A DNA stretch of 64,000 nt, from the NCBI GenBank assembly GCA_017506865.1, contig JAFCMP010000514.1, positions 1,178,001 through 1,242,000 of the forward strand, read 5' to 3'. The translations under genes were made by a program, and so were the position numbers. Positions 69-64,000 of this stretch are shown piece after piece. Within the stretch, counting starts at the first letter, position 1. Each line of letters begins with the position of its first letter. Source of the DNA: Tribonema minus. Lineage: Eukaryota > Sar > Xanthophyceae > Tribonematales > Tribonemataceae. Under the pieces are notes generated by a model. It searched no databases. It was not told where the DNA came from and was given only the letters and a program-made list of their open reading frames with translations.

Positions 69-3000
69 CTATTGTAGTCTCGGCGTGACGCACCGTTCGC
101 GCCGCTCCTGCGCCAGCAGCGCTCGGCAGTCGCCGTCGCCGCCGCCGCCCTCCTGCCGCTCGTGGGCGCGAAACGGCCACGCCGCGTCCCCGTCCCCCCT
201 CCCCCCCCCACGACACTGACTGTCGCCATCGCCAACGGTGTCGATGGCAGCGTCCGCGGCGGCATCGCTGCCGCCGCCGCCGCCGCCGCAGGTGCACGCG
301 GAGGAGACGGAGAGGGTGAGCTCGCGGCGGCGCTCGCGCTCGCGCGCGAGGCACTCGTCCCTGTCCCTCTGCGCCCTGCGCACGTAGATCTGTACGGTGC
401 AGCGCGGCGCGGCGGAGGCGGCAGCAGCGCAAAGGACGATCGCGGTGAGCGGCGGCGCGGCGTTCACGTGCTGCTATCCAGAGTTGTTCAAAAACGACAT
501 GGGGGTTGGGGTTAAACTTCTGCTGCGGTTCAGGCACGGCACTCGTCCCTGTCCCTCTGCGCCCTGCGCACGCAGATCTGCGCAGCGCGGCGCGGCGGAG
601 GCGACGCGAAGGGTAATTGCGGTGAGCGGCGCGGCTCCACGTGCGCTGAGCTCTGCTGCAGTTCAGAGTTGCTCTGAAAAGGTGCTCAGCAGCTGATGTA
701 TTCTCAAAAGTTTGTGGTGCAGCAAGCAGCGGGCCAGCTGTCCCTGACCCTAGCCCTACGCTGGCACGGGGGCCCCGCAGTGGTGCTGCGCCTCAGGATT
801 GGGGTTAGGTTAGGGTGAGAGCTGCGGTGAGGAGACTTGGGGATAGGAATAGGGTTTGGAGTGGGGAGACTGCCGATCTTGGTCAGCCCGCGCTACGGGG
901 CTGCTAAGCCCAACCCTATCCCTACGCAGCGCGCTTTTCCGTGCATGGACCTCGCAGCCGTGCTGTACATTAGGGTTAGGGTTGGGGTGAGGGCTGGGGT
1001 GAGGAGGCTTGGGGTTAGGGTAAGGGTTCGGTTACGCTGCTGCGGGCACACACGGCCCGTCTCGATGCGCGCTACAGTCCCATGGACTATGCTCCTGACG
1101 TGGTGTGAACGGGCAATGGTAAGGCTTTGTTGTTTATGAAAAACGAATCAAAAAGATCTTTGAGCTCTAAGTGACAAGGGATGGTTAGCCGCAAGTGCCT
1201 TCCACCAATAACCGTGATCGCCGCTGCCGCAGCCATTGGCCACGAGTCAAACAGTGCCACCATAACCTCAGTAGATAAGACTTCTGTGTGCAAGTTTTTT
1301 AGCGTTCGAGGCAAGGGTGTTCAGTATGGACAGGTCTCACGTGTTTGGTAGGCCAGCTCAGTTTATATTGCATGCTTAAGTACCCGAAACCCTATGTGTG
1401 TTTGCTCGCATACAGTCGTGATGGCCTCTTGCAGGCACCCGCCAAGTATCTGCTCTGCCAGCAGTTATGGCATACTGAGGACAGTGAGTCTAGGGTGCGT
1501 CCGATAGACTGGGTTGCCCCAGAGACACCAAAGGCTGACAGCACCGTGCAGAGCGCGCTGCGGGAATTTGAAAGGGCGATGGCGATCAGGAATGCAACCC
1601 TCAACACATACTGTTGGAATATGAGATGGTCCAATACTGGGTGCATACCCTAGGGGTAGGGGATGGTCCAGTTCTAAGGGTTTCTCCAGGAATTTCTGCC
1701 AAGTTCTTGAAGGGTTATGGTGCCCCTACGGCAGCTACAAAGGGTACCTTCGCAGAGCATAATGTGCCACGAGTCAGACTTGTCCCCCATCACAATCGCC
1801 TGCATTTGCCACTCGACCTGGTCAGCAGCGCAATCACGTTTTTGCTCAATGTCAGGCTCATCATCTGGGGCAAGCGATACAGCGTCAGGCTTTTGCGAAG
1901 TACTCTTTGTAGACTATGAGTTCAGCGCTTCCTTTCGGATCGCCAGTACCCTTTCAGATTCCCGCAGCGCGTGCTATCATCATCCTTCCGTATCTCTGGG
2001 GCGATCCAGTCTGTCAGACGCACCCTAGGCTCACTGTCCTCAGTATGCTACAATTGCTGGCAGAGAAGTCATGCTTTGTGGGTACCTGCAAGACTGATTA
2101 CAACAATCGAACCAGTGAGTAAGTGGGTGACTCATACTTTTAGGAATGTTCCGGACTCTCATGACGTGGACATTCATTCAATGTCAATGGACGCATTCAT
2201 TCATTCATTCAATGTCCATACTGCTCAGCAACAAGGAACACCTCGAGCTGCTACATAGCACACAATTCTTGAGCGAGCCCAAGCTGAACTCCTTGTACCT
2301 TGCTGCCCAAAGTTCCTGGCCATAGGAGCACCAATACCCCTCTGAGCCTGCCCCACACCCTTGGCAGGACTCCTCTTGGACAACAGGTGATTGACTGTTG
2401 CTCACCTTTGCATCAATTGGTCCAGAACACTTCACCTCAGCTGCACTTGCTGGTCACTTGCGTGCCCCTTATTTCGCTCGTCGGCACAGCGCCATTCACT
2501 CATTTGGCAATTAAAACAGGAAATTGAACCTGTAACCCCCGAATTGCAGACGAACGCCCGTCCGATTAGGCCAGGGTACCCTCCACTGGCCATGACCCTG
2601 TGCCTCTGCTTCAATATCGGACGGTGCAGCACGATCACTGACGCGGACAGGTGATGCTTCAAAGCAGATTGGAGGTACGCCACGCTGTGCTACCATCAGA
2701 GGTGGTTGCGGATCAGGTGACAGCAGCAGCCTGCTGCAGCTATGGCGGCACAGTGACCAACCGTAAATCTGACCCCACGCCTGCAGCTGCTGCGGCCGCG
2801 GGCCCACTCAAAAGCGCCATCAGCGCCGCCGCCGCCGCCACTTCGGCACTCGCCGCATCTGCTGAATCTCACCTCCTCCCCTGTGATGCATTGATCATCG
2901 CGCACTGCAACGCCGCTGACGTAGCTCGCCAGCTGACAGTCCATTTTAGTTCAACACACGCTTCAAGAGCTGACGCTCCGCGCGCTGCGCACCTGCAGCT

Positions 3001-6000
3001 GCGCCAGCTCCTCCGCCGCTGCCGCCGCCGCAGCGCGCTCCCGCGACAGCGCCGCCGCCGCGCGCGCCGCCGCCGCCTGCGCAGCGTCGCGCTCCACCGC
3101 TGCCGCCGCGCCGCCGCGCTGCAGCTCCTGCAGCTCGGCGGCGCGCGCCGCCGCCGCCGTCACCGCCGCCGCGCGCTCGGATTCGAGTATCGCGGCGACG
3201 TCTGCAGGTACGGACTGCGCCAGCGCCGCCTGCGGTCGCATTGCGGTGCAGCGAGTGACAGAGCAGCGCTCAGCACATGTTACGGTTAAGTGTTTGGTTG
3301 AAGGGGGGGGGGGGGGGGAGACTGACGTGCCACCTCAGACAGGGTTCACATCGTGCTTCTAACTCACTTCTTCTGCGAGCAACACATGCTCCCGCGAGTT
3401 GTGTCTGCTTGACTGCTTAATTAGCACGGTGGTGGCGCTATGCGTACTAGTACGGTGGTGGCGCTATGCGTTGTCAGCAAGGAATAGTGGGCTGGGCAGC
3501 GGGCGGCGCGAAGGGTCACAGCGGCGAGCAAGAACGGCGGCAGCGGCGCATGACCATCACTGGCGGCGGCGTGCGCGCACGGCCGTCGTGCGCCGCCGCC
3601 GCCGCGCGCTATGTAGGGCCAGCGCAGGAGTTTCTCAGATCGGTCAGATTTACGAATGTGTCTTGCGCTCGGGCACGAGGGGTTGGCGGCTGAGCTCTGC
3701 CGCCGCCGCTGCTGCCGCGGCATCTGAGCATGCGCCGGCGAGGCAGATAAGGCAGAGTCAGAGCAGCCTCTACGCATGCATCGGCAAGCCAGGCTGCTGA
3801 CCAAAGCAGGTGGCGCGGTAGGTCCAGACAGACGACCCGTGATAGTGGCTCCCGCCGCCACCCCCCTGAACCTCACGATTCTGCGCGCCGTGCGGGAACC
3901 CGCAGCGCAGCGCCGGCGCGCGCGCACACTGTGAGCTAGCCGCGCGTCTCACCTCAAGCTTCTCGATGCGCTCGCGCGCCGACTTGACGAACGGCGGCTC
4001 AGCGCCGCCGCCGCCGCCGCCGCTGCCGCCGCCGCCGCCCTCGGCGCCGCAGCACGCGCGCGCGAGCGCCCGCGACTCGGCGGCGTTGAGGCCGCGCGCC
4101 AGCGCCGCGAGCGCACGCCGCACGTGCGCGAGGCTCAGCAGCGGCGGCTCGCACGCGCCGCCGCCGGACCACAGCGAGCGCTCGTACGCGGCGCGCACGG
4201 CGCGCGAGAGGCGGACGCGGCACGCTCCGCCGCCGCTGCTGCCGCTGCCGCCGCCGTCGCTGTCGCTGGCAGCGGCGTCGGCGTCCGTGACGATGGCGTC
4301 CGCGAGGCCGCGCTCGCGCAGCCGCAGCGCGTGCGCGCGGCGCCCCGCGGCAAGCCCCGCCAGCAGCGCCGCCGCGGCGCCCAGGTCCTGAGCGGCGCCG
4401 CCGCCGCCGCCGCCGCCGCCGCAGAGGCCGCTCAGCACCGCGTCCAGCGCGCGCAGCGGCGGCAGCACGGCCAGGGCGTGCGCCGACGGCAGCAGCGGCG
4501 CCGCCGCCAGTGCCGCCGCCGGCAGCGGGCGCGGCGGCGGCGCAGGCGGCTGGCGGTAGCGCTCGTCCACAGCAGCAGCGGCGGCAGTGGCGGCGATGGC
4601 GGCGCCGCTGCCGGCGACAGCAGCATCGCCGCCGCCGCCGCCAGTGCCAGCGGCACCGTTGGCGGCGCGGGCAGCGCCGAGCGCGCGTAGGCGGTTGGCG
4701 GCGAGCACGGCGATGGCGACGGCGCGCAGCGATGGGAGCAGGGGCTCGGGGGCCATTCCCAAGGGGGAGAGGCCGGGGGCGTGCCAGCCCCCTCGCAGGC
4801 CGTTGCAGCCCTTGCCTTTGATGGTCGCAGCGAGCTCGAATAGGGCTGTACGAGGGGGTGAGGGGGAGGGGGGGAGGGGGGGGTTGAGCGCTGCGTTGCG
4901 CAAAGTCGGCGCGCGAAAGTCTGCGTGCGGCATATGCTGATGTCGATGCGTCGAAGCATCGCTTGGTCTGTTCATGAATTCTCGCACAGGGCGCAGGAGA
5001 GGCGGACTGTTGACGTCAAGCTTGCCAAGTACCGCAGTGCTTTGCGGCACAGTGTCTCAATGCGCACTGACGATCACTTCCTCACTACTTGCACTACTCG
5101 TCTGAGGGGGCTAGGTTGAGCATGGCAGCATGAGCGTGAACGCACAACGCTCGAGCTGCGGCACTTGCGCACAGAAGTCTTTTTGCCTGCTGTGGTTATG
5201 GTAGCACTGTTTGACTCGTGGCCAATGACTGCAGCAGCGGCGACCACGGCTATTGGTGGAAGGCACTTGCGGCCAACCATCCCTTGTCACCTAGAGCTCT
5301 ACAATCTTTTGATTCTTTTTTCATTTGATGCAGAGAGTGAAGCCGCAGCGTTGTACTGCTTCGGCGGGTGTTCCAGGAGCGCACCGACACTTCACCAGGA
5401 GAACTGAAGCACCAGCCCCGCTCGCTGACGATCCGTCACGGCGAGCTCTCGAAGAGCGCGCCGAGGGGGGCTGCGGAACACCGGGGGTTGAGCGCTGCGA
5501 CGCATGCCATTGGCACGTACACAGTTGAACGCTTCTTCTGTGCTTAACGTGAGCTTCCCCGTGTGCACTGCTGCTTGACGACGGCAGAGCGTAGAGTGAG
5601 TGCACGTCATTGCCGGCGGTGGCTTGCAGCGAGCTCAGAATAGGTATATATAGGGGGGGGCTGGAGTAAGGGGGGCTGACGAAAATGGGGCTGAGCGCTG
5701 CCGCATTCTTGGGGTTAGGGTTAGCCCTGACCTCAAGGCGGGTATCGAGGGCACCTTTGCGCGCGTCGCTGGCCTTGCGGAACAGCGCAGCGCTCAGCAC
5801 ACACACAACGCGAGTATCCGTAAATCACTCGACGCCCGGCGGCGGTACCGACAGAGATGCGCAAGTGGCAGCATGTTTTACGAGGGCAGGTTTTGCATGC
5901 TAGGATGTGGCCGTTACAGATCAGGAGGCGAGGTCATGGTATGGAGGCATTAGGGTTAGGGCTATTAGGGTTAGAGTACGGCCGTCCACTAAAAGCAGAC

Positions 6001-9000
6001 AAATGGATTCTGAAACAGGCTAAGCCCTGTAGTCTGCCCCAGTGGCGGGAATACCATTCCCCCTTTTCCTTCTCCACACAAACAATGCCAATCCATCTTG
6101 ACCACAAATGACTCTGTTTCTTGAGTGTGCTTCTGTGTCTGGTGGGGTGCTCTATTTGCACCATTGTGCCTTGTACAAAAGGGATGCCTTTTTCGGCACA
6201 GCAGAGAGATAAATGCAGTTTTTTTGGACCCAAGAATTGCGCCACCGGTTTCGGCAGGGTCTACCGCAGGAATGAGGTTCTTGGTGCATCCTCGTACTTC
6301 CTACGGCCAAGCACGGCAACGAAAGTATAATCAATATTACCCACCAGCCCACGCCTATTTTGGTCAAGTGTAGGTGAGGGAAGTGGCGTGGAGAGAGAGG
6401 GGGGGGGTCTTCGCTTCGCTGGATTATGCAAAAAGTCATTACTGCGCACTCTCTTCATCAGAGCGCGCACGTGGGCACACACGCGTACGCACTTCCCTGC
6501 CTGCAGAGGGGCATTCATGCGGTACATAGTGGCGCCGTCTGCGGCTGTATCAGTTACGCCATTTCGCATCATCATCCGCGTCGAAATGCGCGCACGATGC
6601 TTGACCAACGGTGGCGCGGCGCATTCCGTTCGTCGGCGAACGTGCCAGCGACTCATGCGTGACTCGGTGACTCAAGAATCACGAGTGCCTCGCCTGCCTG
6701 CAGCGGAGCGCTGACGCGGTAGTGGCGCGCCAGAAACGCCCTGCAAGCGCATCACTTAAACGTGCAAACGGTGTGTTGCCAGCAATGGTACGGCACGTTG
6801 CCCGCATCAGGGCATGCGCGAGTAAATCGTGACTGACTCATGACTGACTCGTGAGTGACTCGCCTGCCTGCAGCGGAGCGCTGACGCGGTAGTGGCGTGC
6901 CAGGAAGGCCTTCTGCGCGCGCAGCTCCGCGCACAGCGCGCGCAGCGGCGCGAGGAAGCGCGCCATGAGCTGCGCCGCCGCCACCGCTGCTGCGCGCTGC
7001 TGCTGCGCGGCGGCGGCGGCGGCGTGCGCTGCGGCAGGCGCGGGCGGCGGCAGCGAGGGGGCGATGCGTTGGCATGATTTGTTGTGGATTAAGCAAATGC
7101 TGTCGGCTGAAGTGTCATATGTTGATAGCATCTGCTGTGTACATCATCTCGACGACTTCACAGCATGCGCGACTCGTGCTGAGTCAAGCACAGGCTTTCT
7201 GTTGTGGTGTCATACTCTGGCATCTGCTGTGAAAATCGTGTCTACACCTTCAAAGCATGCGCAATCATACTCTAGCGTCTGCTGTAAACATCGTCTCTCA
7301 CTTTTAAAGATGCGCGATCCGTTATGAGTCGAGCAAAATCTGTATGCCTTGGTGTCATACACTAACAGGCTTACCAACAGCATCTGCTGTGTACATGATC
7401 GCAGCTGCGCTGTGACACTGCGCACGCGGCGCCGGCAGCGGGAGCGACGCGTCGTCGCGATTCGTCGTCACCATGCGAAAAGACAAGCACTGACGTGTCA
7501 CGTAACACTGCAGCAGCAGGTCTGCAACGTCCTACCATAGCATCCGCTGCAGTGCCAGCCTATACTGAATACTTGCATATACTTCGACTATAGCATCTGG
7601 AGCGCCTACTGCGCGTCGCTCGACATTGGCATACAGCACTCGCTCCTCACGTATTCGGCGACACCACAATCTGTGCGCAGAGTGCATAGTCATTTGGAGT
7701 ACGTTGAAGCAGTTGATGAAGCGATGTATCCTTTGTAGTACAACGGTTCCTCAACGTTCTCTGACTCTGCGACAGCGGCAGCCGCCTAGCTACGCTAGCG
7801 CCATGGACATGTGTACTGCTGAAGTCACACACACGAGTGTACATGAGTACGTACTTCAAGTATATGATACTTCGAAGCATCAGTGGATTATGTGAGGCGC
7901 ATTCAGTCATTTATTATTGGTACTTCCAGCGCGAGTCTCGCCCTTCTCTGCCTCTGCGGCCGCGGCAGCTGAGCTGGCTCGCGACATGAACGTGTATTGA
8001 GGTATGTATGTATACGCATCAAGTTCAATACGCACATCTATACAGAAGTGTAAACTTCCGGAGAGTATGTATGAGTATGCACACGATATTAGATTTTGTC
8101 AATGGACTTTGTGACGCGTATCCCGTCATTGATCATTGATGGTTCAGACGCTTCTCACCTTCCTGTGCCTCTGCGGCCGCAGCAGCCGCACCCTCTTGCG
8201 CCTCGTTCAGGGCCACTCGGTACTTGCATGCCTGTCACACCAACAGGCGCCACATGAAAGACGAAAGGCAGTTGAGGTGGCACGATTGCCGGATTCATGG
8301 CTCAACGCGAAGGAAACAACAAAGTAGACGTACTTGAGGAATAGTTGTAGGTGAGACGTGGCGAACCCTTGGGATTTGGTTAGGAGTAGGGTTAGGCGAC
8401 AACCTTGCGTGCATGCGCAAAACAGCGCCTCCTCTGCAGCAGCAGGCAAAGTTGTCCTACGCTACTGGACCTGAGCGTGATGATCACGTGCGCATGCATG
8501 CATACATACACACCCTTGACTTCAACCACTACTTCAAGTGCTGGCCGAGCGGCAGCGGGGAGATCCACACTCACACCGACGGGCGCCGGCTCCGCGCCAC
8601 TTACAAGCAGCGCATAGTGCAGAAGCCCATAACATTGCGCGATATCCCTCTCAATGTATAATGTATCGCGCCCCTATAGCAAGCAATGCGCTGTCACCTC
8701 TGCTTCGACGGCCTCGCGGAGCTCCTGCGCAGCGCGCGCGGCGGCGGCGCGCTCGTGCGCGGCGCGCTCCGCAGCAGCGCTCGCCAGCTCTTGCGCGTGC
8801 GCCTCGCGCGCCGCGGCCTCGCGCGCAGCGGCGACGCTGGCGGCGTGCGACGCCTGCAGCGGCAGAGGGCAGGTAGTGCGATTCAGGTGAGACGGCGTCA
8901 AGAACTCATGAATATTATTGTGGAAACAATTTGGAAACAATTTGAAAGATTGTGCTTCTACATTATATTCATGAACGTATACTTACTCGTGGACATGAAC

Positions 9001-9907: not shown

Positions 9908-9945
<38 letters not shown>

Positions 9946-10106
9946 GCAGCGGCAGCAGCGGCGCACGCGCGGGGTGAGAGCGGGCGTTGCGGCGCGCGCA
10001 CGCGCGTTGGATAGCAAAGGCCTGGCGCACCTCCGCGCTCGACACAGTGAGAGGTGCATTGCTCTGCAGCGAGCATGCATTGCTCAGCAGCACCCCCGAG
10101 CCCCAG

Positions 10107-10138
<32 letters not shown>

Positions 10139-13100: not shown

Positions 13101-14427
13101 GCGCGATGGCGTGCGCAGAGCACTGACGCCTTCATGCAGTGCCCGTCGCACAAGGACGTTTGCAGCGGTGAACCACTTCATGCACGCATACGCCGCATGT
13201 CACAGTCATGCACACCGATGCATACATGTGCAACGCCCGTGTCCAGGTTCGATATGGAGACGGTGCCGACATAAATTGACTCGAGGCCAGTTGCTGCAGC
13301 AGCGGCGACCACGGTAGTCGGCGGTGGAAGGCACTGGCGGCTAACCGCACCTTGTCACCTAGACTACAGCTCTACAATCTTTTGATTCATTTCCATAAGC
13401 TCACCGCTGCTGCAGCGCCGCCGCGCCGGAGCGCAGCGCGTCCGCCTCCGCGCGCCGCGCCGCCTCGCGCGCGAGCGCCGCCGCCTCCGCCGCCTCCACC
13501 GCCGCGCAGCGCTGCTCGAGCATGCGGCAGTGCGCGGCGAGTCGCGACGCGCGGCCCGCGTCCGTTTGCGCAGCGTGAAGCTGCTGCTGCAGCTCGCGGA
13601 CCTGTCGGCAGCAGCGCGGCCGGGCGACACAAGTGGGTGTTGTTTGGATGTGAAGGTGTGCGGTGGTCGGGAGGATGCGAAAGGTGCAGGGTGCACACAC
13701 ATGCAGTGGGGGGGGGGGGGGGCGGCAGGTGCCGCTGGTGCTCTGTGCTGGTCGTGTTGTGTTGTGGGCTGATTGACAGGAACGTGTGTGAAAAGCTGCT
13801 GTCCACAAGTGCTTGTCTTGAAAGCTGAAGACTCCATTTTGGAATTACATTTGCCTTGCGCAGCCGCCAGATCGCAGTGTGCAGATGGCGATGGCGCCAG
13901 CAGTGAGCTCAGCTCTGCGCAGCCAGCAGTCTCATTGCGTTTAAATTGAAATCTTTAGAGGGTCTCCGCATCCACTGGTCAGCTTACCAGTGCGTCCTTG
14001 CGCTGTTCGTCGTTGCGCAGGTGATCGATGGCGGCGCGCTGATGCTTGAGCAGCCGCAGCGAGCGCTCCTCCGCCACCAGGTCGTCCAGCTCCATGGCTG
14101 CTCGCACCTGAAACAGCATGCCAGTGTAGAGGCTGAGATGATGTGTAGCAGTTGCAAAGGATGTGCTTCTAGCCCAGAAAGTTTCGCGGGCTCTGAGTAA
14201 GTCGGAGGCATCGCGCAAACACGGACCTCGGCAGACAAGTCGGATTCCTTGGGGTCCAGACGCACAACTGGCGAGAATGGGCTCCGGTCCGCCGCCGACA
14301 CCGTCGAAGACGATGATGACCGATGGCTGTTGCCTCCAAAGAGCAATGCAGCTCCAGCAGCACTCGCATCCGACAGGCTCTCCCGCAACTGCTGCAGTTG
14401 CTGCAGCGACGTTTCCAAGTCTGCCAT
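69..14427 (-). CDS. Long Ala-rich coiled-coil protein, multi-exon
   Basis: Exons with matching phase, in transcript order: 14427-14227, 14107-13988, 13601-13405, 12938-12547, 12048-11819, 11027-10932, 10063-9695, 8853-8698, 8231-8159, 7106-6868 (691 codons). Then an exon ending at 3953 whose 5' boundary (near 4840-5050) is unsure, then 3229-2993, 2932-2873 and 389-69 with a TAG stop. The N-terminus begins MADLETSLQQLQQLRES. Most of the product is Ala/Arg/Glu-rich heptad sequence typical of long coiled coils, with Leu-rich and Gly-rich low-complexity stretches. The exon at 3953-4840 contains SLRAVAIAVLAANRLRALG, which faintly resembles the end of a PACT centrosome-targeting domain. A basal-body, centrosomal or cytoskeletal scaffold is therefore possible, but no family is firmly recognised. 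The 5' splice site at 6867 is GC rather than GT. It is head to head with the ferredoxin gene. The first ten exons are solid. The left third may be a separate gene or have missing exons. Confidence 0.6.
538..655 (-). repeat. Acceptor-side copy of last coiled-coil exon
   Basis: Repeats the GCAG acceptor and ~45 nt of the exon start at 389 (IYVRRAQRDRDEC), with the upstream intron segment (~70 nt) also copied. Confidence 0.85.
1132..1310 (+). repeat. Dispersed repeat family R1, copy a
   Basis: About 180 bp, opposite in orientation to copies b-e. It shares GAATCAAAAAGATCTTTGAG, GTGACAAGGGATGGTTAGCC and GGCCACGAGTCAAACAGTGC blocks with the others. Confidence 0.85.
5165..5330 (-). repeat. Dispersed repeat family R1, copy b
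   Basis: About 165 bp, some 85% like copy a in reverse orientation. It contains a short frame (VMVALFDSWPM...IGGRHLRPTIPCHLEL) that is open in copy a too, probably because both copies are young. Confidence 0.85.
6490..6725 (-). repeat. Two donor-side copies of coiled-coil exon 6868-7106
   Basis: Copies at about 6495-6535 and 6688-6735 repeat the exon end (HYRVSAPLQ edge) and its unusual GCAGGC donor. Confidence 0.82.
7130..7420 (-). repeat. Intronic tandem units upstream of exon 6868-7106
   Basis: Four units (near 7130, 7220, 7276, 7385) carry a CAGCATCTGCTGTGTACAT-like word, resembling the acceptor edge of the exon (ACAGCATTTGCTTAAT), with TCATACTC words between them. Confidence 0.6.
7925..7985 (-). 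repeat. Donor-side copy of coiled-coil exon 8159-8231
   Basis: Repeats the exon end (AAAAAEAQE edge: CTCTGCGGCCGC block) about 200 bp downstream in sense. Confidence 0.7.
10480..10875 (-). repeat. Three donor-side copies of coiled-coil exon 10932-11027
   Basis: Copies near 10493-10540, 10616-10662 and 10798-10850 repeat the last ~45 nt of the exon (AAAALQRCATL edge) and the GTGGGTGACGCGCC donor. Each is preceded on the plus strand by an ACTTCAACACAGGCG-like word. Confidence 0.92.
11215..11440 (-). repeat. Acceptor-side copies of coiled-coil exon 10932-11027
   Basis: Copies at about 11218-11285 and, weaker, 11385-11435 repeat the region around the CGCTGCAG acceptor and its upstream CTGATCCTGA branch-site-like segment. 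Confidence 0.8.
13288..13400 (-). repeat. Dispersed repeat R1, copy c, abutting a 5' splice site
   Basis: In gene sense the element's left end TTATGGAAATGAATCAAAAG begins immediately after the GTGAGC donor of exon 13601-13405, so the element supplies the intron from its seventh base. Confidence 0.82.
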
Positions 14428-18430: not shown

Positions 18431-18480
18431 ACTAACCCTAACCCTAACCCTAACCATAACCCTAACCCTATCTCTAACCT
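18431..18480. repeat. Interstitial telomere-like (CCCTAA)n tract
   Basis: About eight CCCTAA units with some substitutions, on the plus strand, far from any chromosome end visible here. Similar shorter or more decayed tracts recur across the window. Confidence 0.85.
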
Positions 18481-18984: not shown

Positions 18985-28144
<9,160 letters not shown>

Positions 28145-37400: not shown

Positions 37401-40400
37401 GAATGAATGAACTCACTATCATGAATTGTGCTTGGCGGCGCAGCGCCTCGAGCGTGTCGCGGACGGGCCCGACCTGGGTGCGCGGCGCGCGGGTAGGTAG
37501 GTATGTATTGGGAAGAGAATGAATGAATTCGCCATCGTGAGCGGAGGGAATGGAAGGTGAATTCGTACGGAAAGGGGGGGCCGATGGGGGGGAATGAATG
37601 AATGGATTGCGGCGGGGGGACCCTGGCGCAGGTTTGGCCACTGCATGTGCGCGCGCGCTGCAGGATAAGAACCTCAAATCTCAGACTCGAGTAACAGACA
37701 TGAGTTGGTTGAAGCAAAGGCCGGAGGTACCAGGATTGCGTGAGTGGTCAGCTGCCCTGGCCCAGCGCGATTTGAGTGCGTGCATCAGCGGCAGCACACA
37801 TAGCATGGGCGCGCCAGCGCGCACTCATGTCCCACCTTATGATTCGAGTCCTTTGCAGATGCCGCAATGTTGGTGGCGGCAGGGTGACTGACCAGGAGCG
37901 GCTACGAGCCGAGGATGCGCATGAACGTTGCTGTACTTCAAGTATTTCAAACAGTTTCACGGAAACGGCAGTGACTGACCAGCTTGCCTTGGCGCGGGTA
38001 CGAGCCGAGGACACGCACAAACAACAATAACTTGCACACGTGCTGTGCTTCAAGTAGTTCAGCTCCCACGGTAGTAGACCTCCCCGGGTAGCCGCAGCTA
38101 CAACAGTATACAAGTCACTCACCAGTAGCCGCAGCTGCTACAAATGTTAGTCACTCACCAGCTGGCCCTGGCGCGGGTACGCGCCGAGGACGCGCATGAG
38201 CGGCGCGACCTCGCGAAGGTGCGCGAGCGCGCTTGCATGCTGTACTTCAAGAAGTTGAACATTCTCTATTTCAGCAAAATGCGTCACTTACGAGCTGCCC
38301 GTACTAGCCGCGGACGCGCATGCACGGCGCGACCTCCCCCAGTTGCGCTGTCGAAACTCATTGCTGTACTTCAAGCACTTGAACATTATCTAGTTTCAGT
38401 CAGCAAATAAATCACTTACGAACTGGCCCTGGCGCGGGTACGAGCCGAGGACGCGCATGAACGGCGCGACCTCGCGCAGGTGCGCTGTCAAACTCATTGC
38501 TATGCTTCAAGTATTAGCAGTTTAACTTCAAGTAGTTGCAGTGTCGCACAAAAGCGGGCGTGACTCACCAGCTGCCCCTGGCGCGGGTATGAGCCGAGGA
38601 CGCGCATGAACGGCGCGACCTCGCGCAGGTGCGCGAGCGCGCTCTGCGCAGCATCATCCAGCTCCGCCGCGAGAAAGTCCAGGTAGAAGCAGTACTGGAA
38701 GCGCGGCAGGTCGTCGCTGCCGCCGCCGGCGCCGCCGGCGCCGCTGCCGCTGCTGCGCAGCTGGTAGCGCAGGTACTGCAGGAGCTGCGCGGAGGTCGGG
38801 CGCGACTCGATCTTGGAGAAGTCGATGTCGCGCAGCGAGAAGCACGCGAGCGCCTTGTAGAGCGCGCCGGCGGTGTTGGGCAGCGTGAACACGACGCTCG
38901 TCTTCGCGGGCACGGGCGGCGCGATGAAGACGCCCACGGGCTGGCGCGCGAGCAGCAGGAAGCGCGTGAAGTTCACGTGGTCGTCCTCGATGTTCGTCGC
39001 CAGGACCTGCGACGGCTCAGGCGATACCACACAGGGGTCAGGGCTAGGGCTAAGGTTGGAAGATCTGCAGATGGCACGCACGTACACGAGTCTACGCTGC
39101 GCCTGTAAGACACTGCACATCTACTCAAGCCTCTTGCACACATCTAAACGGCTAGAATGGGTGATGAATGACCGAAGTACAATCACCTCGAGACCGTAGG
39201 TCTCTGCTGCGAGCTCGCTGGCGATCGTGGCGCGCCCCTCCCTAGCTTTCCTCGAGTGCTTGAAGTGTAGTGTTTGAGGGCCTGACATTGTGTTTGAGGG
39301 CCTGACATCCATACACCGTCTAGGAGTCAGAATTTTTAGGGTTAGGGCTAGGGTCAGGGTTAGGGTTAAAGTTCACGAGAGGGTTACCTCGAGGCCGTAG
39401 GTCTCCGCCGCGAGCTCGCTGGCGATCGCCGCGCAGCCCTTCATGCCCTTCTCGGCGATCATCTTGGCGCTGCCGGCCGTGTCGTACGTGGGCACGCGCT
39501 CCACGCCGGGCATTGCACGGAGGTAGTTGTCGCACTGCGCGAGCGCCTGCTGGTGGCTCAGGACCTGCGGCACAGGAAGAACGATATCAACCACTACAGT
39601 GATCAGTATGCGCCAAGGCTTATTTGAGTGTTGAATTGTGAGTTGATGAACGCCACGAGTAGCAAGTGCCTGCTGGTGGCTGAGCCTCTGCAACGAGGCG
39701 CGGTGGAGCGATGACACGGTGGTGAGGCAGTGCTCAGCATAGCGGGGCATCGCGCGCAGGCAGTTGTCGCACTGTGCGAGCGCCAGCTGGCGGCTGAGCA
39801 CCTGCGATATTAGCGGTGGAGCGGTGAGGCTGTGTGATGAGGCAGCGCTCAGCACCTGCAACGTGTACGACCGGGCGGTGACACGGTGTGGTCACACAGC
39901 TCAGCGAAGCGAAACTTCGTGTGCACGCAGTGCGAGCCATGGCCTTCACCAACGGCCCGGTTGCGAAAGCGCCATCGGACTGTCGCTGGACATGCATGGC
40001 TGATGTGGGAGGGGCGGTTAGGGTTAGGGTTAGGGCGGCGCCTGTTATTTTCGCGGCGCCTGATATTTCCGCAGCTCAGGGCGTGCATTTGTTCGCCACA
40101 GACGACGGAAAGTCGGACGGCGGCGGCGCGACATGCGGCGGTCCCCTAGGGTCAGGTTAGTACTACGATCAGGCGAGTCTGGCAGCGGTCCCATAGGGTT
40201 AACCTTAGGGTTAGGTTAGGTCTACGGTTAGGGTTCAGCCACCCACCGCTGACAGCACTATGGGAAGCGCACTTCGACCCCATCCAGATACTTCCACTCG
40301 CAGCGAGGCGAACAGCGGACCGCAGAGGTTGCGCGCTGCTCCCTCTGCGCTCAGGCGCTAGGATGCGCGACTTCAGTCCCGAGCTAGAAGTTTCAGCATC

Positions 40401-42902: not shown

Positions 42903-50655
<7,753 letters not shown>

Positions 50656-55200: not shown

Positions 55201-55329
55201 GTTCTCATTGGCCCACACGGCGAACTTGGAGGCCTTGCGCTCCGCCTCCGCAGTGCGGTCATGGGCAGCGTCCGTGGGCGCCGCCGCCGCCGCGTGCACC
55301 GTCGGAACCAGTTTCGCCATGCGGAACAT
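52228..55329 (-). CDS. Small two-helix membrane protein with alternative last exons, HIG1-like topology
   Basis: Exon 1 is 55329-55081 (83 codons, MFRMAKLVPTVHAAAAAPT start). It can join in phase 0 either to 53418-53308 (36 aa plus TGA) or to 52314-52228 (28 aa plus TGA), giving 119 or 111 aa. Both last exons encode a second helix, AALLxSxVGxVSxFWVWE, then differ (LLKETDHLKHPE versus SPKDNPRVTH). The layout is an Ala-rich N-terminus, ANENPMLAMGW helix, RFSERFARTGMIGN loop, then the second helix. This resembles HIG1-domain respiratory-chain assembly proteins of the inner mitochondrial membrane, but the match is only topological. Which last exon is used, or whether both are, cannot be told from sequence. 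Confidence 0.62.
53460..53705 (-). repeat. Acceptor-side copies of last exon 53308-53418
   Basis: The copy at about 53465-53515 repeats the CACAG acceptor and first ~45 nt of the exon. Weaker copies centred on CCAATCACAG occur near 53590, 53680 and upstream. Confidence 0.82.
54880..54970 (-). repeat. Donor-side copy of the small gene's exon 1
   Basis: About 75 nt repeating the end of exon 55329-55081 (KHPGMRFSERFARTGMIGN edge) and GTGAGT, downstream of the real donor. Confidence 0.92.
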
Positions 55330-56555
55330 GCTGCTGCTGCTGTCCGGTGGTGTGTGTGTGCGGAGTGGGTAAGAGTGTGACTGCGGGGTGTGGCGGCGGA
55401 GGCGGCGGGAGCGTGAGGCGAGGTTAGCGCTCTGCGTGAAGGGCGCCGCATGCATGCGTGCGAGTGTATGTGTGTGTGTGTGCGTGCATGTGTGCGTGTG
55501 TATATGCTTGCGCGTGTTTGTGTGCGTAATTGTGTGTGTGTGCTGCATGCAGCGGGTGCGGGCGCAGCGTCGTCAGCGCTCGAGAGAGGCGTTCCCAGGC
55601 GCACCGCAGGCATCAGGAGCGACGCAAGAACATGATCGGACGAGGGTGCCTACGCCAAAGTGTAATCCTCCCATAGAAGGTCATGCTTTGAAGTATGACG
55701 TGATGAACATATGAAAGTTCCCAGGCGCACCACAGGCATCACAAGCGACACACGATGCATGTGCCACAGTATAGTACGCCACATGATACCTATCACATAA
55801 TGCATAGTACTCAGATAGTTGGCAGAAGCGCCGTGGTCGTCACACTTCAACTTTCTATTTAGCGACGGCAGCCTCAATCCGCTAAAGCCTTACTCCGCTG
55901 AAGCCTCCCGCCAGTTTGACATCAGAGAGTCATGTGATCGAGGATTGAAGATGTCACGCCTGGCCCTGCCGACTTGACATTACACAGGCCATGTACTAAA
56001 CGCGACACCACCCATGTACTAAACGCGACATTCAACCAACATTCCAGAAGTTGCTGGTGCACGTGGCTACCGCATCACGCACCGGTGTGAACACAAAATC
56101 TTCAGCCCTGCACTCTTTGCAGCCAGGCCGACGATCAACCGTGCTAGATGTGTGTGTTCAAGGGCATCAACTGCCTGCATTCGTGCTCTGCTTGAAGGCA
56201 CCATGCATACAGCAAGGAAGGTGGAGTGTCGGCAAGCGCGCGTGCCAAGTTTTCAACAAGGCCGAGCACATCAGTCGCAGCATCCGATGACCGAGCGCTT
56301 GCATACCGTTCAAGACATCCTTGTCGTGTTCTTCACATGTCATTCCGACTTCACCGGCAACAGACTCACGTTGTTCATGACTACCGGGAACAGTGCAAAC
56401 AAGTCGTATGTGCATCACCTGCGAAACCGGCTGCTGGCTGCTTGCCGACTTCTCCCGTGCGCCTGCTGCTGCTGCTGCTCTCTGCTTCTTTGTTTCTTTC
56501 TTCAAGAGGAAGGTGAGTCACAGCGGTGGAATCTTGAAGTTGATGTTGGTCTGTT

Positions 56556-56668
56556 GCGAATTTGGAGGCCTTGCGCTCCGCCTCCGCAGTGCGGTCGTGA
56601 GCGGCGTCCGCAGGCGTCGCCGCCGCCGCCGCGTGCACCGTCGGAACCAGTTTCGCGATGCGGAACAT
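56556..56668 (-). pseudogene. Partial duplicate of the small membrane-protein gene, 5' end only
   Basis: ATG at 56668 with the first ~38 codons of exon 1 (MFRIAKLVPTVHAAAAA...KASKFA) intact, then an abrupt switch to unrelated sequence. The homology continues upstream through the leader and the GT-rich segment to about 57000, matching 55330-55640. It is a truncated gene copy ~1.3 kb from the original, and carries its promoter. Confidence 0.82.
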
Positions 56669-56828
56669 GCTGCTGCTACTGTCCGGTTGTGTGCGTGTGA
56701 GGGGAGTGGGTGGAAGTGTGACTGGCGTGTGGCGGCGGCGGAGGCAGCGGGTGAGTGAACTGAGGTTAGCGCTGAGGGTGAAGGACGCCGCTGAGTGCGT
56801 GTCATGAGAGTGTGTGTGCATGTGTGTG

Positions 56829-56860
<32 letters not shown>

Positions 56861-57120
56861 ATGTGTTGCGCGTGGCGGCAACGGCGGCGGCGGGATGTGC
56901 GCGCTGCATGGCCAGCGCTCGACAGTGGCGTTCTCAGGCTCATTGCGGGTATCACAAAAAACGCGGAAAACATGATCGGGCGAGGGTGCATATGCTGCAG
57001 TACAATACTATAGGATAACGCACATGATAAATATAGGCAAGCTTTTAAGAGTATGAAGACAGCATGTCGCGCTCACATAATGCATTGTAAATCAGCTTAA
57101 TTGGCGGAAGCGATGAGTGA
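56669..57120 (-). repeat. Duplicated promoter/leader segment
   Basis: Parallels 55330-55830 in order: the CAGCAGCATG leader, TG microsatellite (56828-56858 versus 55467-55545), GGCGTTC and CATGATCGG(A/G)CGAGGGTGC blocks, then ACATAATGCAT. Diverged but collinear, so a segmental tandem duplication of the 5' region. Confidence 0.75.
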
Positions 57121-57790: not shown

Positions 57791-58430
57791 CGCTCATCAA
57801 GGAGGCGATGCTTTACTTAGTTATATAGCCTTTCTCTCTAGCGTCAGCGCCTGGCGCCCAGTGACTCCCTCTGCTTATCTCTATGATATCGGGGTTCACG
57901 TAGATAGCCACAATCTCCAGTTCAGGCCCATTATGGTGACCTTGGCCTGCATGAAAACTTTGAGATGGAGTCTGCGTGGAGCTGGGTGGCCCTTAGAAGG
58001 GTCTGTCTGTGGGGGGAGAGTCTTGCAGCTTTGTTTGGTATCCCTGCTAGTGTGTGGGGGACAGTCGCTTGCGGATGCTTTGTTGGGGGTGATATGGGAG
58101 GCCCGGTGAACCACCGTCCCGCTCATCAAGGAGGCGATGCTTTGCTTAGTTATATAGCCTTTCTTTCTAGCGTCAGCGCCTGGCGCCCAGTGACTCCCTC
58201 TGCTTATCTTTATGATATCGGGGTTCACGTAGATAGCCACAATCTCCAGTTCAGGGCCCATTATGGTGACCTTGGCCTGCATGAAAACTTTGAGATGGAG
58301 TCTGCGTGGAGCTGGGTGGCCCTAAGACGGGTCTGTCTGTGGGGGGAGAGTCTTGTAGCTTTGTTTGGTATCCCTGCTAGTATGTGGGGGACAGTCGCTT
58401 GCGGGTGCTTTGTTGGGGGTGATGTGGGGG
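57791..58430. repeat. 329-bp tandem duplication
   Basis: Two copies (57791-58119 and 58120-58430) about 97% alike. This is much younger than the other repeats here. Frames stay open through both copies on both strands (for instance AYLYDIGVHVDSHNLQF on plus, LEIVAIYVNPDIIKISRG on minus). The minus reading faintly resembles an endonuclease-type retroelement strand but is too short to call. Confidence 0.9.
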
Positions 58431-60666
58431 GCGGGGTGTGGCGTGCAAGCTTTGCAATCTACATCCAAGAGTGAGAACAAGGCGACACACCTACAACATG
58501 GCATTTCCACAGCCACAAGTGGAATATAATAAAAGTTCAGTACCACTCTCAAAATCTGGGCAGCTTGGGCCTGGGCAGAGCTACAAATGTGAAGTTGCAT
58601 ACAAACACCTAGAGACATCATATAGGAACTTCTTGAAGACCTGGTACCTGAGACTCTTTCATCGCATGTCATCCTATCATTTACTAGCAAGGTGCACAAG
58701 CCCAAAGCCGTAACACGAGTGTAATTGCAGCCCTGGCGCTTGTTGTGCTTCGCTGGGCACTTGGTGTGTGTGCTATTCGCGATGCTGCTGTTGCTGTCTG
58801 CATGCAAGTGTTGTGGGGGCAGGTGCATGCACCACGTGCAGGCATGTGCACGCATCAAAGTCACATGGTGTGCATCGCTGCCGCCAAGTGTCCCCATTTG
58901 TGACCAGAGCTTGTTTGTGAAGTTACTGCATGTGAAGGTGGTGACGTTCCCCTGGCTTGCCTGTGCATCTTTGCTGCTGTCCTGCGCACGAGACTCATTC
59001 GCAAGCCACAATCTGGCAAGTGCAGCATGCGCATCAATCCCCAACTCACACATTGCCGCATCTACTGCGTCGACGGTCCAGCCACTGCTGCACAGCAGCA
59101 GCAGCCCGACCACACGCGTTGAAGCACGCTGGAGTCTGCCAGCGTCGCTACCACAGTTGTGCACTTCACGTATGGACTTGTATTTATAAAGGCCCAAGGG
59201 AGGCCGGGTTGCCTATGCAATCGAAAAGCTTGCGTCAACGCAGCAGCCTAGTCTGCGCTGTGCCCTAGGACAGTTGTGCACAGCTCGAGCACAAAGTCCT
59301 ATCCTGCCTTGTATGATGCACCATAAGGTGCCGTGGCGATGCGATGCTGAGTATACGCTTGCTTCTGCACAACAAATTGTTCCAATGTGACACAGTGCTC
59401 AGCCAACAGTTGTGACCGGAGCCATCATCATGTGTGTCAATCATGTGAGCAGCGCTCTGTGTCTCACATCCAGAGAGCCGGGCTTACGCGCTGTAGGCAA
59501 CAGCCGCAAAGCGAGCGCCGCTGGCATTGCAGAAAACAGCAATCACCACACGAGATGCAGAAGGGCAAGACACTGCAGCCATGCAGCACGTGACACAGAG
59601 CCGCAGGCGCGCAACAAATGTTGCAATCATCATCTGACGCGTGAACAGCATCAACAGTCAGATGCATTGAGAGCACCAAAATTGACGGCGGCGCGCCGAG
59701 TGCAGGCAGCGTCTCCGCCTTCCCCCGCTTCCAACGCTACGGAGTGTCGGACATCTCTATGGCACTGCCGTGCGCGCACGGAAAGTGCGGGGCGCAGAAG
59801 CGTGCGCCTCGCAAGTATAACTGCCCACGCACGGGGGGGAAGGGGGGCACCCAGAATTGCCAATGCCTTCTGTGAACCTCGTGTAGCAGGCAGCGGGGGC
59901 TGATGTATGGGGGGTTCTCTTGGCGGCACGCTGTGATTCCGGCCGCGGCGGACTGGCAATGTCGGCAGGTCAAACACCTGCCCCCCACACATTTACACAA
60001 TTATGCGAGCCGAAATAATCGGATAGGGTACGCAGCGAGCGCTGGCCGGCGCGGGGGTGATATCACTGATACCTGCCGTACGATCAACCGACGCGAGCCG
60101 CCATGCATGGCGACCGCGCGCGCTGCCGCAGTGGCCGCAACCGGCCAGAGCGACCCCGTGAGGGCGGGTGAGAGAGGGCCGCTGCAGACAACCGGCGCGC
60201 AGCCGCGCCGCAATTCTGTGCTGTGTGTGCGCAAGCGCAGCGCCGACCACCCTGTGCATGGCCCTGCTGCTGCGGCCCGGGCGACCATGGCTGCAGCAAA
60301 TTGCTGCCCAAGCGCGCTCTGCGCCTGATTACAGGGGAGGTCGAGCCCACACATGCGGCGTGCAGCATGTAGGCGCCCGGCGTTGTGCTGCGCTGCGCAA
60401 GGGCGGCAGCAGCAAAGACCCGCTCGACACGCGCTGCACATCAGCGCGCGCACGGCCGCAGAGAGTCCCTGACCGCGCTCGCTGGATGCATGCGCACGCG
60501 CCCCGCATGCGTCAGTGACGCCGCCGTCGGACATGCGCGTCGCGCGCAGCGTTCTGCGAGAGATGGCTGCACACGCGCCGGGCTCCTGCAGAGTGCACCG
60601 CGGCTCCCTTCTGCGCCGCAGCTGCTAGGCGCAGCGCCGCCGCCCTGGAGCGCTGCTGCCGTCGCG

Positions 60667-60699
<33 letters not shown>

Positions 60700-60815
60700 T
60701 CGTTCTGGGCGCTGCTGCACACACCGGCGGCAGCTCACAACGCGCACGCCCAAGCGCCAGCTGCCCCTGCGGAGGCTCGCCGCGCCTCCGCCGTCGCTGA
60801 GCACTGGCGCGCGCG
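58431..60815. other. Region without supported gene
   Basis: A 291-codon open frame on the minus strand (58322-59197) and several shorter frames exist, without recognisable domains, codon bias like the real exons, or splice chain. The right end is the 3' flank of the IF-2 gene. Confidence 0.4.
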
Positions 60816-63405
60816 CTACAGCGGCTCGCCGAGCGCACGGCGCGTGCGGCGCACCTCGTACGTCTCGATGACGTCGCCCTCGCGGAAGTCGGAGAAGCCG
60901 TCGAGGCTCACGCCGCACTCCTGCCCCTTGCGCACCTCGGCGACGCGGTCCTTGAGGTGCTGCAGCGCGCCGACGCGCGGCGCCGAGTGGATGACGGCGC
61001 CGTCGCGCAGCACGCGGTACGCGTGGACGGCGCGCAGCGAGCCCTCCGTCACGCGGCAGCCCGCGACGGCGACGTCGCCGCCCTTGTTGCGCGCGTCCAC
61101 CGTGAAGAGCTGCGGTGCGGCGGCGGCGGCGACGGCGAAGGTAGCGCACAATGAGAATGCTTACGACAGGGAGCAGCACCGGCGCCGACGGCAGCGAAGG
61201 TTGCGCACGTGTGAGAATGCCAATGACACGGAGCAGCAGCAGCAGCAGCATTAGCAGAGTGCGGACATGGCGAGGCACTTGAGTGAGCAGCGCTGTGCCA
61301 CGCGTTGCGCGTGGCTTACTGAGAGTGAGTGCCAACGAGAGGAAGGGCGGACACAACGCAGCGCGGTGTGGTGTCCTGCGTCGTGCGTACCATGCGACAG
61401 CCCGCGGCGGGGGCCGTGTTGCGCGCATATCAGCAATCAGCGGCAGCAGCGAGAGCGCATGATCGCGTGCGCGCAAGAATTGAAAGGGCGTCAGTGCGCG
61501 ACGCAGAGCGTGTGCAGCACCAGACAAGGGCACGCACGCGCGTTGGCGCCGATCATTTGAACCTCGGTTTGCCCGCGAGCGGAAGCGGGGGAGACACACG
61601 ACAATTGCGGCCGTACCGGAGCGGAGCCACACGCGGCTTCCGTGCGTCCGCGCCTTGAGATGATACGCGCGCACGACCACGAGCGATGGTAAGACAACGA
61701 GAGCAGCAGGCGGCGGGAACCGCAGGCGCTGCGGCAGAGCGACGGCCGCCGCCCGCGCTCCGCACCCCTAACAGCGCGAACGCATGCGCACGAGCGTAAA
61801 GCGAGCGAGACTGCAAGCAGCGCGGGCGGCGGCACTCCACGACAGCGTCGCATAGACGAGCTCGATTCGCCCCGCGTTTCTGATTTGGCCCAAAGGCTGA
61901 GGGTGCCCGGCAGCCGCGCGGGTCCGAACTTCGGATCATATTGAACTTGTCTGCAGTTGACCCTGAAATTTGGGGCAAATTGAACTCGTCTGTAGTCGCC
62001 TTGAGCACGTCCGCGCGGCCGAGCGCGACGCCGGCGACGCCTACAAATGCCTGTAGATGAGGAAAGCAAGCGAGACCGCAAGCAGTGCGCGCGGCAGCGC
62101 TGCGGCGGCGGCGCAAAGCGGCAGCGCTCCACAACAGCGGGCCGCGCATGTAGCTCACTTTAAGGACGTCCGCGCGGCCGAGTGCGACAGCAGCGACGCG
62201 CGGCGGCAGGCGCTCCTCCAGCAGCGCGGCCACGTCCTCCTGGAAGCGGTAGATGACATCGTGGCGCGTGATGGCGACGCCGAGCGCGCGCGCCGCCGCC
62301 GCGACGTCGTTGCCGACAGCGCCGACGCCGTACGCGAAGAGCGGCGCGCAGCCGGCTGCGGCGGCGCGCTCCACGTCGCTGTTGGTGACGGGGCCGACGC
62401 CTGGGGGGTGAGGGGGGGGGGGGGGGGGGGGGGAGGGGGGAGGAGGGAGGATGAAGGTTGCGGTGGAGCTGCGGGAGAAGAAAGAGGGGGAGGGGGGGGG
62501 GGCTGCGCAGCATGCAGAAGCCAGTGCAGGAATATGTTGTTGCAGATATATGCGGCGGCGCGCTCGACGTCACTGTTGGTGACGGGGCCGACGCCTGGGG
62601 GGCATGGAATGGGGAAGGGGTGTGTGGGAGGTTGAGCGGAGGAGGAGGGGGGACAAAGGTTGCGGTGGAGCTGGGGGCTGCGCAGCACGTAGAGACCAGT
62701 GCGGACGAATGTTGCCGCAGAGAATAATGAGTGCTTCGCGCAGCGGTCTGGGTTGCGGTGTTTGTACTGATGTCAGCGCCTCACTGCGCCGAAGATCGAG
62801 GTCGGGGCGAGGGGCACGTTGATACCCTGTACCTTAAAGTTCAGAGTACCTCATTCAGGTCGCCATGTAAGGGAATCGGCGCGGGTGGCGGCTTCGAGAG
62901 CCACTCCGTATGGCTAAGCTGTTGTCAAATGTGATGCGACACAGCGGCTGCAAGTCCAAACCTCAACTTGATGTGTTAAGTACACAAACCCTGGACTGAA
63001 CCCTCACTCCACGAGCAAGGCCACGCACTTCAAACGCATGAGTCTGACCCTGACCTGGACCTGAACCTTGCCTACATGGACAAGGCAAACTAATCCATAC
63101 CCTACCTCTAGCCCTAACTCACCTGAGTGCGCAACCTTCAGCAGCACCTCGTCCTTGTCCCCCCCCCTCCCCCCCATCAAGATGCAATCTCAACCCCTTG
63201 CTTGAGCGGTATTGCTATCCTCTGCCCCTGAAATTGATGACCCTAACTCACCTGAGTGCGCAACCTTCAGCAGCACCTCGTCCTTGCCCGGCAGAGCCTC
63301 CACCGCGGAGATCATGGCGGCGAGCGCGCCGTGCCCACTGGCCTTGAACACAGCGGGGACGCTGATGGGGCCCGTCGGTGCCGCCGCCGGCTCCACAGGG
63401 GCATT
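60816..63405 (-). CDS. Organellar translation initiation factor IF-2, C-terminal part
   Basis: Three exons, 63405-63252, 62400-62159 and 61109-60816 (stop), join in phase and cover domains III and IV of the bacterial-type factor. They match the canonical order: a PAVFKASGHGALAAMISAVE segment, HSGVGPVTNSDV, the YRFQEDVAALLE stretch, then the last beta-barrel (GCRVTEGSLR, YRVLRDGAVIHS, LKDRVAEVRKGQECGVSL, EGDVIETYE). The GTP-binding domain and targeting peptide must be encoded right of the window, so plastid versus mitochondrial location cannot be told. IF-2 brings initiator fMet-tRNA to the small ribosomal subunit. Exon-edge copies occur in both introns. Confidence 0.92.
61985..62050 (-). repeat. 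Donor-side copy of IF-2 exon 62159-62400
   Basis: Repeats ~30 nt of the exon end (VALGRADVLK edge), followed in sense by short TTTGGGGCAAATTGAACT-like direct repeats (61925-61990). Confidence 0.78.
62545..62605 (-). repeat. Acceptor-side copy of IF-2 exon 62159-62400
   Basis: Repeats the CCCCCAG acceptor and ~45 nt of the exon start (VGPVTNSDVERAAA), beyond a G22 run (62412-62433 on the plus strand). Confidence 0.88.
63115..63165 (-). repeat. Donor-side copy of IF-2 exon 63252-63405
   Basis: Repeats ~40 nt of the exon end (DEVLLKVAHSG edge) with GTGAGTTAGGG. The intronic part of this donor itself starts a TTAGGG-like tract. Confidence 0.88.
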
Positions 63406-64000
63406 CTGCAAGGGGGGGGGGGGGGGGTTGTTGGGGGGTAGAGGTGGGGGGTGAACGTTTGTTGCTGTTTATACAGCTTGTACTTGTGATCGGAACCGAC
63501 ACCGGCGCTAGACGGGCATTCTGCAAGGGAGGGGGGGGGGGGGGGATTGGCGGTAGAGGTGGGTGTGGGACGGGGGGTGGGGGTGAGGGTTAATTGAGGG
63601 TAAAGGGGTGACCGTTTGTAGTTGCTTCACAGAAGTAGTTGTGAAGCTTGTGCTTGTGATCGATAAATGAGGTCTCGCTTGAGGCGTGAAAAAGCCGCCG
63701 CCTGGGTGATGCCACGCTCGCTGCCTGAATTTACATACGTGCACAGTGTGACAAAAGTGTCCCAGTGCGCGTTCGCGCTCACTTCTGAACGACGTCGTCA
63801 AGTGTACTAGGAGCATGTACGAATGCATAAGTCGCCGGCGGCGAAAGGAAGGAAAGACAGGAGTAGAGTCGCAGACTCTGTAGCCGGCAGATAGGCTTGG
63901 CCACTGCAGTACCGTTCATAGCGCCAAGGAGTGCTGGTGCTGGCTCATTTTTGTACATGCTGGTTCAACTTTCTGTACATATACTTCGACGTACATCCCT
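63406..64000. other. Intron of IF-2 gene with poly-G runs
   Basis: Contains G runs, a short acceptor-side copy at 63508-63530 and a weak R2-like segment near 63680-63770. No further exon is seen before the window edge. Confidence 0.5.

Follow-up and report, generated by a model that had tools for sequence, protein, structure and literature searches.

Many introns of the yellow-green alga Tribonema minus contain copies of the edges of their adjoining exons. Such copies are present in 32 of the 55 introns sampled, of which 27 hold donor-type copies, 20 hold acceptor-type copies and 15 hold both types, and the total of 91 copies comprises 58 of donor edges and 33 of acceptor edges. The copies are real, as the original prediction held, since every null comparison is empty: exon edges give 0 of 2160 matches at a score of at least 40 in the introns of other genes (maximum 38), reverse-complement edges give 0 of 110 matches in their own introns, and the intron on the wrong side of the exon gives no match in either of two sets of 43 edges, where the right side gives 21 and 16. 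Exon interiors copied into introns were found in 0 of 47 tests. Donor copies therefore lie downstream and acceptor copies upstream of their exon (wrong-side intron, 0 of 86), and the predicted number of one to seven copies agrees with the 1-7 found per occupied donor junction and the 1-5 per acceptor junction. The arrays probably result from pervasive local tandem duplication, in which units that cross a junction survive and the outermost junction, paired across its exon, still wins.

Intron sample and genes of the window

The assembly of T. minus comprises 158 Mb in 554 contigs, and the window is the whole stretch of 64,000 nucleotides that was analysed (C511:1178001-1242000). The sample of 55 introns contains 15 from the window (five of the PP2A catalytic subunit gene, seven of PheA-TyrA, two of IF-2 and one of FKBP) and 40 from seven CCT/Cpn60 loci elsewhere, which were picked by gene family, repeats playing no part in the choice. 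Protein homology and codon usage served to locate the exons, and exact junctions were placed by coding model and splice consensus; junctions of 12 of the 55 introns (seven of PheA-TyrA and five of CCT-theta) are backed by annotated T. minus proteins. Of 54 introns, 53 begin with GT and one with GC, all 54 end in AG, and the 55th intron is GT-AG. Exons of the sampled genes are short (median 154 nt) and their introns are long (median 777 nt). A copy was accepted when the exon edge (up to 120 nt) aligned to its own intron with a Smith-Waterman score of at least 40. The locus L027, in which the gene finder found no gene, two of the ten CCT/Cpn60 clusters, the terminal or uncertain exons of L021, L024, L025, L026 and L028, with some introns there, and the coiled-coil, ankyrin-like, WW/SAM and two small genes of the window are outside the counts. 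An exon of L022 that the gene finder split was taken whole (1379-1507), and the exon ends of L025 at 6300 and L028 at 1375 were placed by eye, only the opposite edges being used. Five unanchored copies are included in the 91 and lie outside the codon, spacing and splice-site counts.

The PP2A gene shows six exons, assigned by frames, splice sites and a Metallophos match (E 4e-42), and its protein is 92% identical over 100% to proteins of Pylaiella and Chrysoparadoxa. Among the 120 matches listed a 100% match is absent (best, 95%), perhaps because decoy exon edges misled gene prediction in T. minus. The gene and its copies, with identities in brackets, are as follows:

18985-25092, minus strand: PP2A catalytic subunit gene
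24980-25092, 22938-23098, 22439-22627, 21384-21500, 20013-20162, 18985-19110, minus strand: its six exons
24852-24884 (100%), 24655-24693 (95%), minus strand: donor-edge copies of exon 1
23187-23290, minus strand: acceptor-edge copy of exon 2 (104 nt, 97%)
22745-22817, minus strand: acceptor-edge copy of exon 3 (84%, one-base gap)
22252-22323 (94%), 22067-22125 (93%), 21886-21946 (87%), minus strand: donor-edge copies of exon 3
21625-21653, minus strand: acceptor-edge copy of exon 4 (97%)
21260-21297, 21152-21189, 21035-21072, 20707-20729, minus strand: donor-edge copies of exon 4, with weaker ones besides
20238-20286, minus strand: acceptor-edge copy of exon 5 (78%)
19878-19943 (98%), 19696-19761 (94%), minus strand: donor-edge copies of exon 5

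The second gene encodes a chorismate mutase/prephenate dehydratase/prephenate dehydrogenase fusion protein (PheA-TyrA) with PDT and PDH_N domains, of which eight exons were used. The first seven match the annotated protein P0001 at 100% over 580 aa, and the eighth was read directly in P0001; the relative of P0001 in Ectocarpus aligns with the query in full at 69%. Listed relatives that have PDT and PDH domains include proteins of Ectocarpus, Chrysoparadoxa, diatoms and Phytophthora.

31491-42416, minus strand: PheA-TyrA gene
42177-42416 (continues further 5'), 39388-39564, 38569-39006, 36998-37348, minus strand: exons 1-4
35937-36128, 34726-34842, 32868-33092, 31491-31769, minus strand: exons 5-8
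39742-39801, minus strand: acceptor-edge copy (83%)
39187-39240, minus strand: donor-edge copy (87%)
38423-38485 (97%), 38306-38348, 38159-38233 (93%), 37980-38017, 37892-37927, minus strand: donor-edge copies
37430-37473, minus strand: acceptor-edge copy (98%)
36695-36730, minus strand: donor-edge copy (92%)
36210-36250 (95%), 36358-36398 (90%), minus strand: acceptor-edge copies
35769-35827, minus strand: donor-edge copy (95%)
34973-35026, minus strand: acceptor-edge copy (81%)
34545-34585 (98%), 34447-34476, 34355-34384, 34290-34318, 34109-34133, minus strand: donor-edge copies
33198-33247 (94%), 33367-33409 (100%), 33531-33576, 33726-33767, 33897-33946, minus strand: acceptor-edge copies
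32512-32562 (88%), 32357-32402 (96%), minus strand: donor-edge copies
31912-31958, minus strand: acceptor-edge copy (90%)

Parts of two further genes were used, IF-2, with an IF-2 domain (E 6e-14) over its first two exons, and FKBP, assigned by domain and coding model. The Pfam matches do not cover the third IF-2 exon, placed by the coding model, or most of the first FKBP exon, so that the junctions there lean more on that model.

63252-63405, 62159-62400, 60820-61109, minus strand: IF-2 exons
63123-63160, minus strand: IF-2 donor-edge copy (97%; 11 intronic nt identical)
62551-62594, minus strand: IF-2 acceptor-edge copy (95%)
62001-62040, minus strand: IF-2 donor-edge copy (85%)
48083-48227, 49390-49680, plus strand: FKBP exons
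48841-48904 (75%), plus strand: FKBP donor-edge copy
49119-49178 (83%), plus strand: FKBP acceptor-edge copy

Copies were originally described in seven of eight genes of the window; this holds in the four genes tested, in 15 of 15 introns, and similar local direct repeats, which are uncounted, are visible elsewhere in the window. Copy-bearing introns are denser in the window than in the CCT/Cpn60 loci elsewhere (17 of 40 introns; p=5e-5), and the frequency is uneven by gene, with 0 of 8 introns in L022, 0 of 3 in L026 and 1 of 4 in L021. All 12 introns verifiable by annotated proteins hold exon-edge copies.

The window also contains a dispersed repeat family of approximately 75-160 nt, in both orientations and at 78-96% (1136-1295, 5163-5324, 13276-13392 and 23585-23660), perhaps the remnant of a mobile element. 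Hexamers resembling telomere repeats (TTAGGG and close variants) form short interstitial arrays at 18432-18479, 39336-39368 and 46797-46852, and further ones at 47128-47158, 48253-48321 and 48391-48462. A perfect (GCT)39 run at 46237-46353 (plus strand), a leucine stretch in the coding model, is followed by a copy of a neighbouring exon edge. Two direct copies of 330 bp at 57791-58432 are 96% identical and show no coding segment by the model, as a young non-coding duplication. The segments 55220-55655 and 56556-56995, 1.3 kb apart and 78% identical over 451 aligned positions, both overlap coding-like sequence of a small predicted protein.

Anatomy of the arrays and the junction in use

Copies reach 21-115 nt from the junction into the exon and then end sharply, and the repeat unit consists of exon edge, splice site and intron, arranged head to tail. 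The period of the first copy shows a median of 172.5 bp on the donor side (range 124-710) and 171.5 bp on the acceptor side (range 122-271), and that of later copies ranges from 65 to 341 bp. The spread of periods is broader than the 110-190 bp that had been proposed, and the proposed decay with distance is present but weak (Spearman -0.29, p=0.006; by copy rank, p=0.18). The Cpn60 array of L028 shows four inner donors spaced 148-151 nt, with exon parts of 79 nt at 90-97%, and CCT-theta (L024) has five inner acceptors upstream of one exon, with exon parts from 48 to 112 nt. Period remainders modulo 3 of 0, 1 and 2 are found in 12, 3 and 9 of 24 young copies, and were not taken as significant. 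If introns grow by duplication, those with copies should be the longer ones; their median length is 939 nt, against 515 nt for the others, and copies are present in 19 of the 21 introns of at least 900 nt and in 7 of the 24 below 700 nt.

The original prediction allowed either copy to be spliced. In the two genes checked the annotated proteins hold only the outer edge: P0001 and P0121, the latter matched at 100% by the CCT-theta exons of L024, join outermost exons only and skip the inner copies in 12 of 12 introns, both being database gene models. Splicing at the nearest inner site would lengthen the message by a multiple of three nucleotides in 17 of 46 cases, approximately the chance level. 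In arrays with at least two inner copies, changes private to the inner copies are about evenly distributed over the codon positions (43/41/57), frameshifting indels are present in 15 of 84 inner copies, and the outer copy differs from all the inner ones at one second-position and nine third-position sites (unpolarised). These codon-position counts and frameshifts reveal coding constraint on the outer copy and none on the inner copies, which decay without codon bias. That the copies are an artefact of the assembly or of the gene models is hardly credible: inner copies are indeed among the exons of an ab initio prediction, and a simple gene finder takes them as in-frame exons in L024 (oriented 5074-6016) and L028 (oriented 3238-3908), but the copies differ by point changes and indels, their flanks differ, and in two genes the annotated proteins agree with the outer exons at 100%. 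Decoy edges are a possible source of annotation errors in the T. minus genome.

The median donor strength is 8.25 bits for inner sites, 9.35 for outer sites and -3.5 for other intronic GT, and the corresponding acceptor values are 7.18, 7.51 and -0.9; an inner site is at least as strong as its outer site in 25 of 53 donors and 14 of 33 acceptors. The AG is retained in 32 of 33 inner acceptors, a small excess over the neutral rate of 0.83 that was assumed (p=0.017), and the GT in 39 of 53 inner donors, a small shortfall (p=0.056 for loss). Inner sites that stay strong and keep their AG would fit copies with a function in the regulation of splicing, whether as decoys, as recursive splice sites or as alternative edges; such a role is highly improbable, given that codon constraint is absent and that presence varies widely between genes. 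Recursive splicing, in which use of the inner acceptor regenerates a donor, would favour acceptor copies at exons starting with GT, but statistically these show no excess (10 of 26 such exons and 10 of 29 others, p=0.79), and donor copies are not in excess at exons ending in AG (p=1.0).

The intron left before the nearest anchored copy is at least 65 nt in 46 of 46 cases, whereas 12 of 40 gaps between later copies are below 65 nt (p=4e-5). This contrast sits on the donor side, with 11 of 27 later gaps below 65 nt and a difference between the medians (p=0.008); the acceptor side has 1 of 13 such gaps (medians, p=0.67). The exception, nearer than 65 nt, is an unanchored exon fragment of 23 nt at intron positions 38-60 in L023, which is outside the 46. 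The spacing of the nearest copy may reflect a splicing constraint.

Local duplication and the origin of the copies

Self-comparison of the window shows 129 direct and 18 inverted pairs, and local repeats at 40-1000 bp in 278.6 kb are 394 direct and 8 inverted. Duplication was scanned by searching intron windows of 50 nt for a second intronic copy no more than 400 nt away, at a threshold that slightly exceeds the 99th percentile of the null. The duplicated fraction is 0.34 at 0-50 nt from the junction and 0.30-0.39 elsewhere; with exon-derived copies masked it is 0.32 beside the junction and 0.18-0.29 elsewhere, the windows being overlapping and non-independent. Where coding signal is low over the surrounding 1 kb, 0.166 of the windows (93 of 561) are duplicated. 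For windows in curated exons the fraction falls from 0.31 in the 50 nt next to the junction to 0.08 at 50-100 nt and 0.02-0.06 beyond. In an unselected sample a local direct copy is found for 893 of 2270 coding-like windows (0.39) vs 802 of 4768 non-coding windows near coding sequence (0.17), which at face value runs against duplication confined to non-coding DNA; we think that the coding-like excess is due to triplet-rich (alanine) coding stretches and to inner copies scored as coding. Mid-intron windows are duplicated almost as often as junction-adjacent ones, gene-poor sequence somewhat less often; duplication therefore appears general in non-coding DNA, and exon edges join in only as far as the duplication unit reaches across the junction.

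Under pervasive local tandem duplication, the non-coding DNA of T. minus would gather local tandem duplications with periods mostly of 65-340 bp. A duplication wholly inside an exon would break the protein and presumably be purged, and one that is intronic, or that crosses a junction from either side, would be tolerated and accumulate because a full exon and one intact splice site remain. A junction-crossing unit would place a copy of exon edge and splice site inside the intron, where two donors, or two acceptors, would at first compete; the inner copy would then decay free of coding constraint, and with further rounds both the ladder and the intron would grow. Use would stay with the outermost donor and acceptor because only they pair across the complete exon. 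From the annotated outer edges and the exon and intron lengths we infer that exon definition discriminates between inner and outer sites, and short exons with long introns are as exon definition would expect. The mutational process may be slippage, template switching or Okazaki-flap misprocessing.

The original prediction had favoured a junction-directed process, such as template switching on unspliced RNA or intron re-insertion; reverse splicing is another candidate for a process that keeps writing exon-edge copies into introns. Copies do end exactly at the junction in 71 of 91 cases and within 8 nt of it in 86 of 91, identity falls sharply at the junction and is then flat, and junction-adjacent windows are slightly enriched. 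Even so such a process is unlikely: mid-intron and gene-poor DNA is duplicated at comparable rates, the units carry intron sequence too, and inclusion of the junction is already predicted by tandem duplication with loss of exon-internal events. The masked rates beside the junction and elsewhere in the intron lend no support to direction to the junction and come near the equality of exon-edge and intron-internal copies by which the original prediction would have failed, with a slight junction excess remaining. The growth of introns by tandem duplication across the splice junction, also predicted, is supported by homologous intron parts, by young units repeated whole and by the ratio of direct to inverted repeats.

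Homology extends to the intron part of the unit, which in 28 of 31 strong copies scores higher than the 95th percentile for unrelated intron pairs, and young units repeat whole, as in the Cpn60 array of L028 (intron identity 0.98). In most strong copies, the exon parts are approximately 96% identical and the intron parts of the same units are much more diverged. A neutral simulation with uniform rate, run on shuffled introns, gives an intron-part identity of about 0.88-0.94 for strong copies (exon part at least 92% identical over 40 nt), against 0.747 observed (n=34); larger indels in the simulation close this gap only partly, and GC content accounts for only +0.02 identity (49 alignments). 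The exon-seeded set fits introns evolving about 2-3 times faster than the copied exon parts, whereas exon identity in the intron-seeded set fits a rate ratio near 1; intron-seeded detection gives 54 matches, and 25 of the 42 near a junction carry the exon edge. Selection or conversion acting on the inner exon parts was considered and rejected, as codon-position counts, simulations and intron-seeded detection leave a modest rate difference only. Its likeliest explanation is faster turnover of introns by further small duplications.

Gene conversion, or repair templated by cDNA or mRNA, with the working exon as master, would also keep inner exon parts similar, and the well-preserved exon parts of strong copies, the intron parts far more diverged than simulated and the identity step located at the junction are in its favour. 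It is quite unlikely, as private changes are numerous in the inner copies and frameshifts occur there too, 10 sites set the outer copy apart from all of them (unpolarised), and the intron-seeded set has hardly any excess of exon identity. More specifically, repeated templating of the repair of intronic copies by spliced RNA or cDNA, which would slow the decay of exon parts and set the step at the junction, is very unlikely; if it were true, introns would keep a running, RNA-written record of exon edges.

Significance and comparison with known systems

The arrays are a natural test of splice-site choice, with decoys of near-equal strength set in as much as 115 nt of authentic exon context. If RNA confirms use of the outermost junction, they offer numerous ready-made competitions in which to study exon definition, and with it a possible minimum spacing from the working junction to the first decoy. 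The arrays also show how introns may grow by local duplication, and warn that gene finders can call decoys exons.

Gao and Lynch in 2009 reportedly described internal gene duplication, with short within-gene duplications involving splice sites. The T. minus arrays have the characters of tandem duplication, being adjacent and in direct orientation, with a unit that joins exon sequence to the intron beside it. Among the recognised mechanisms of intron gain is tandem genomic duplication, which, in the available part of its description (PMC3443670), resembles the arrays in short within-gene duplications involving splice sites; there new introns derive from duplicated AGGT exon segments, whereas the products in T. 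minus are decaying decoy junctions. A single tandem duplication across an intron-exon boundary is known in potato and, as far as the available part of that report goes (PMC4974935), likewise inherits its splice signals from the parent junction; it is one event making a new intron, whereas T. minus shows repeated copies at many junctions of existing introns.

No element common to the introns of different genes was found when intron windows were compared with other genes' introns in a 54-intron sample (maximum score 33). Introners copy themselves into many genes. The arrays are like introners in their genome-scale intron remodelling, to judge from the available part of PMC9860276, and unlike them in that each copy derives from its own neighbouring exon. 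Such arrays of exon-edge copies were not found in the literature searched, a search thin on subscription journals. The T. minus arrays are distinct from the known cases of tandem duplication in their density, known from this genome alone, and in their repetition within existing introns.
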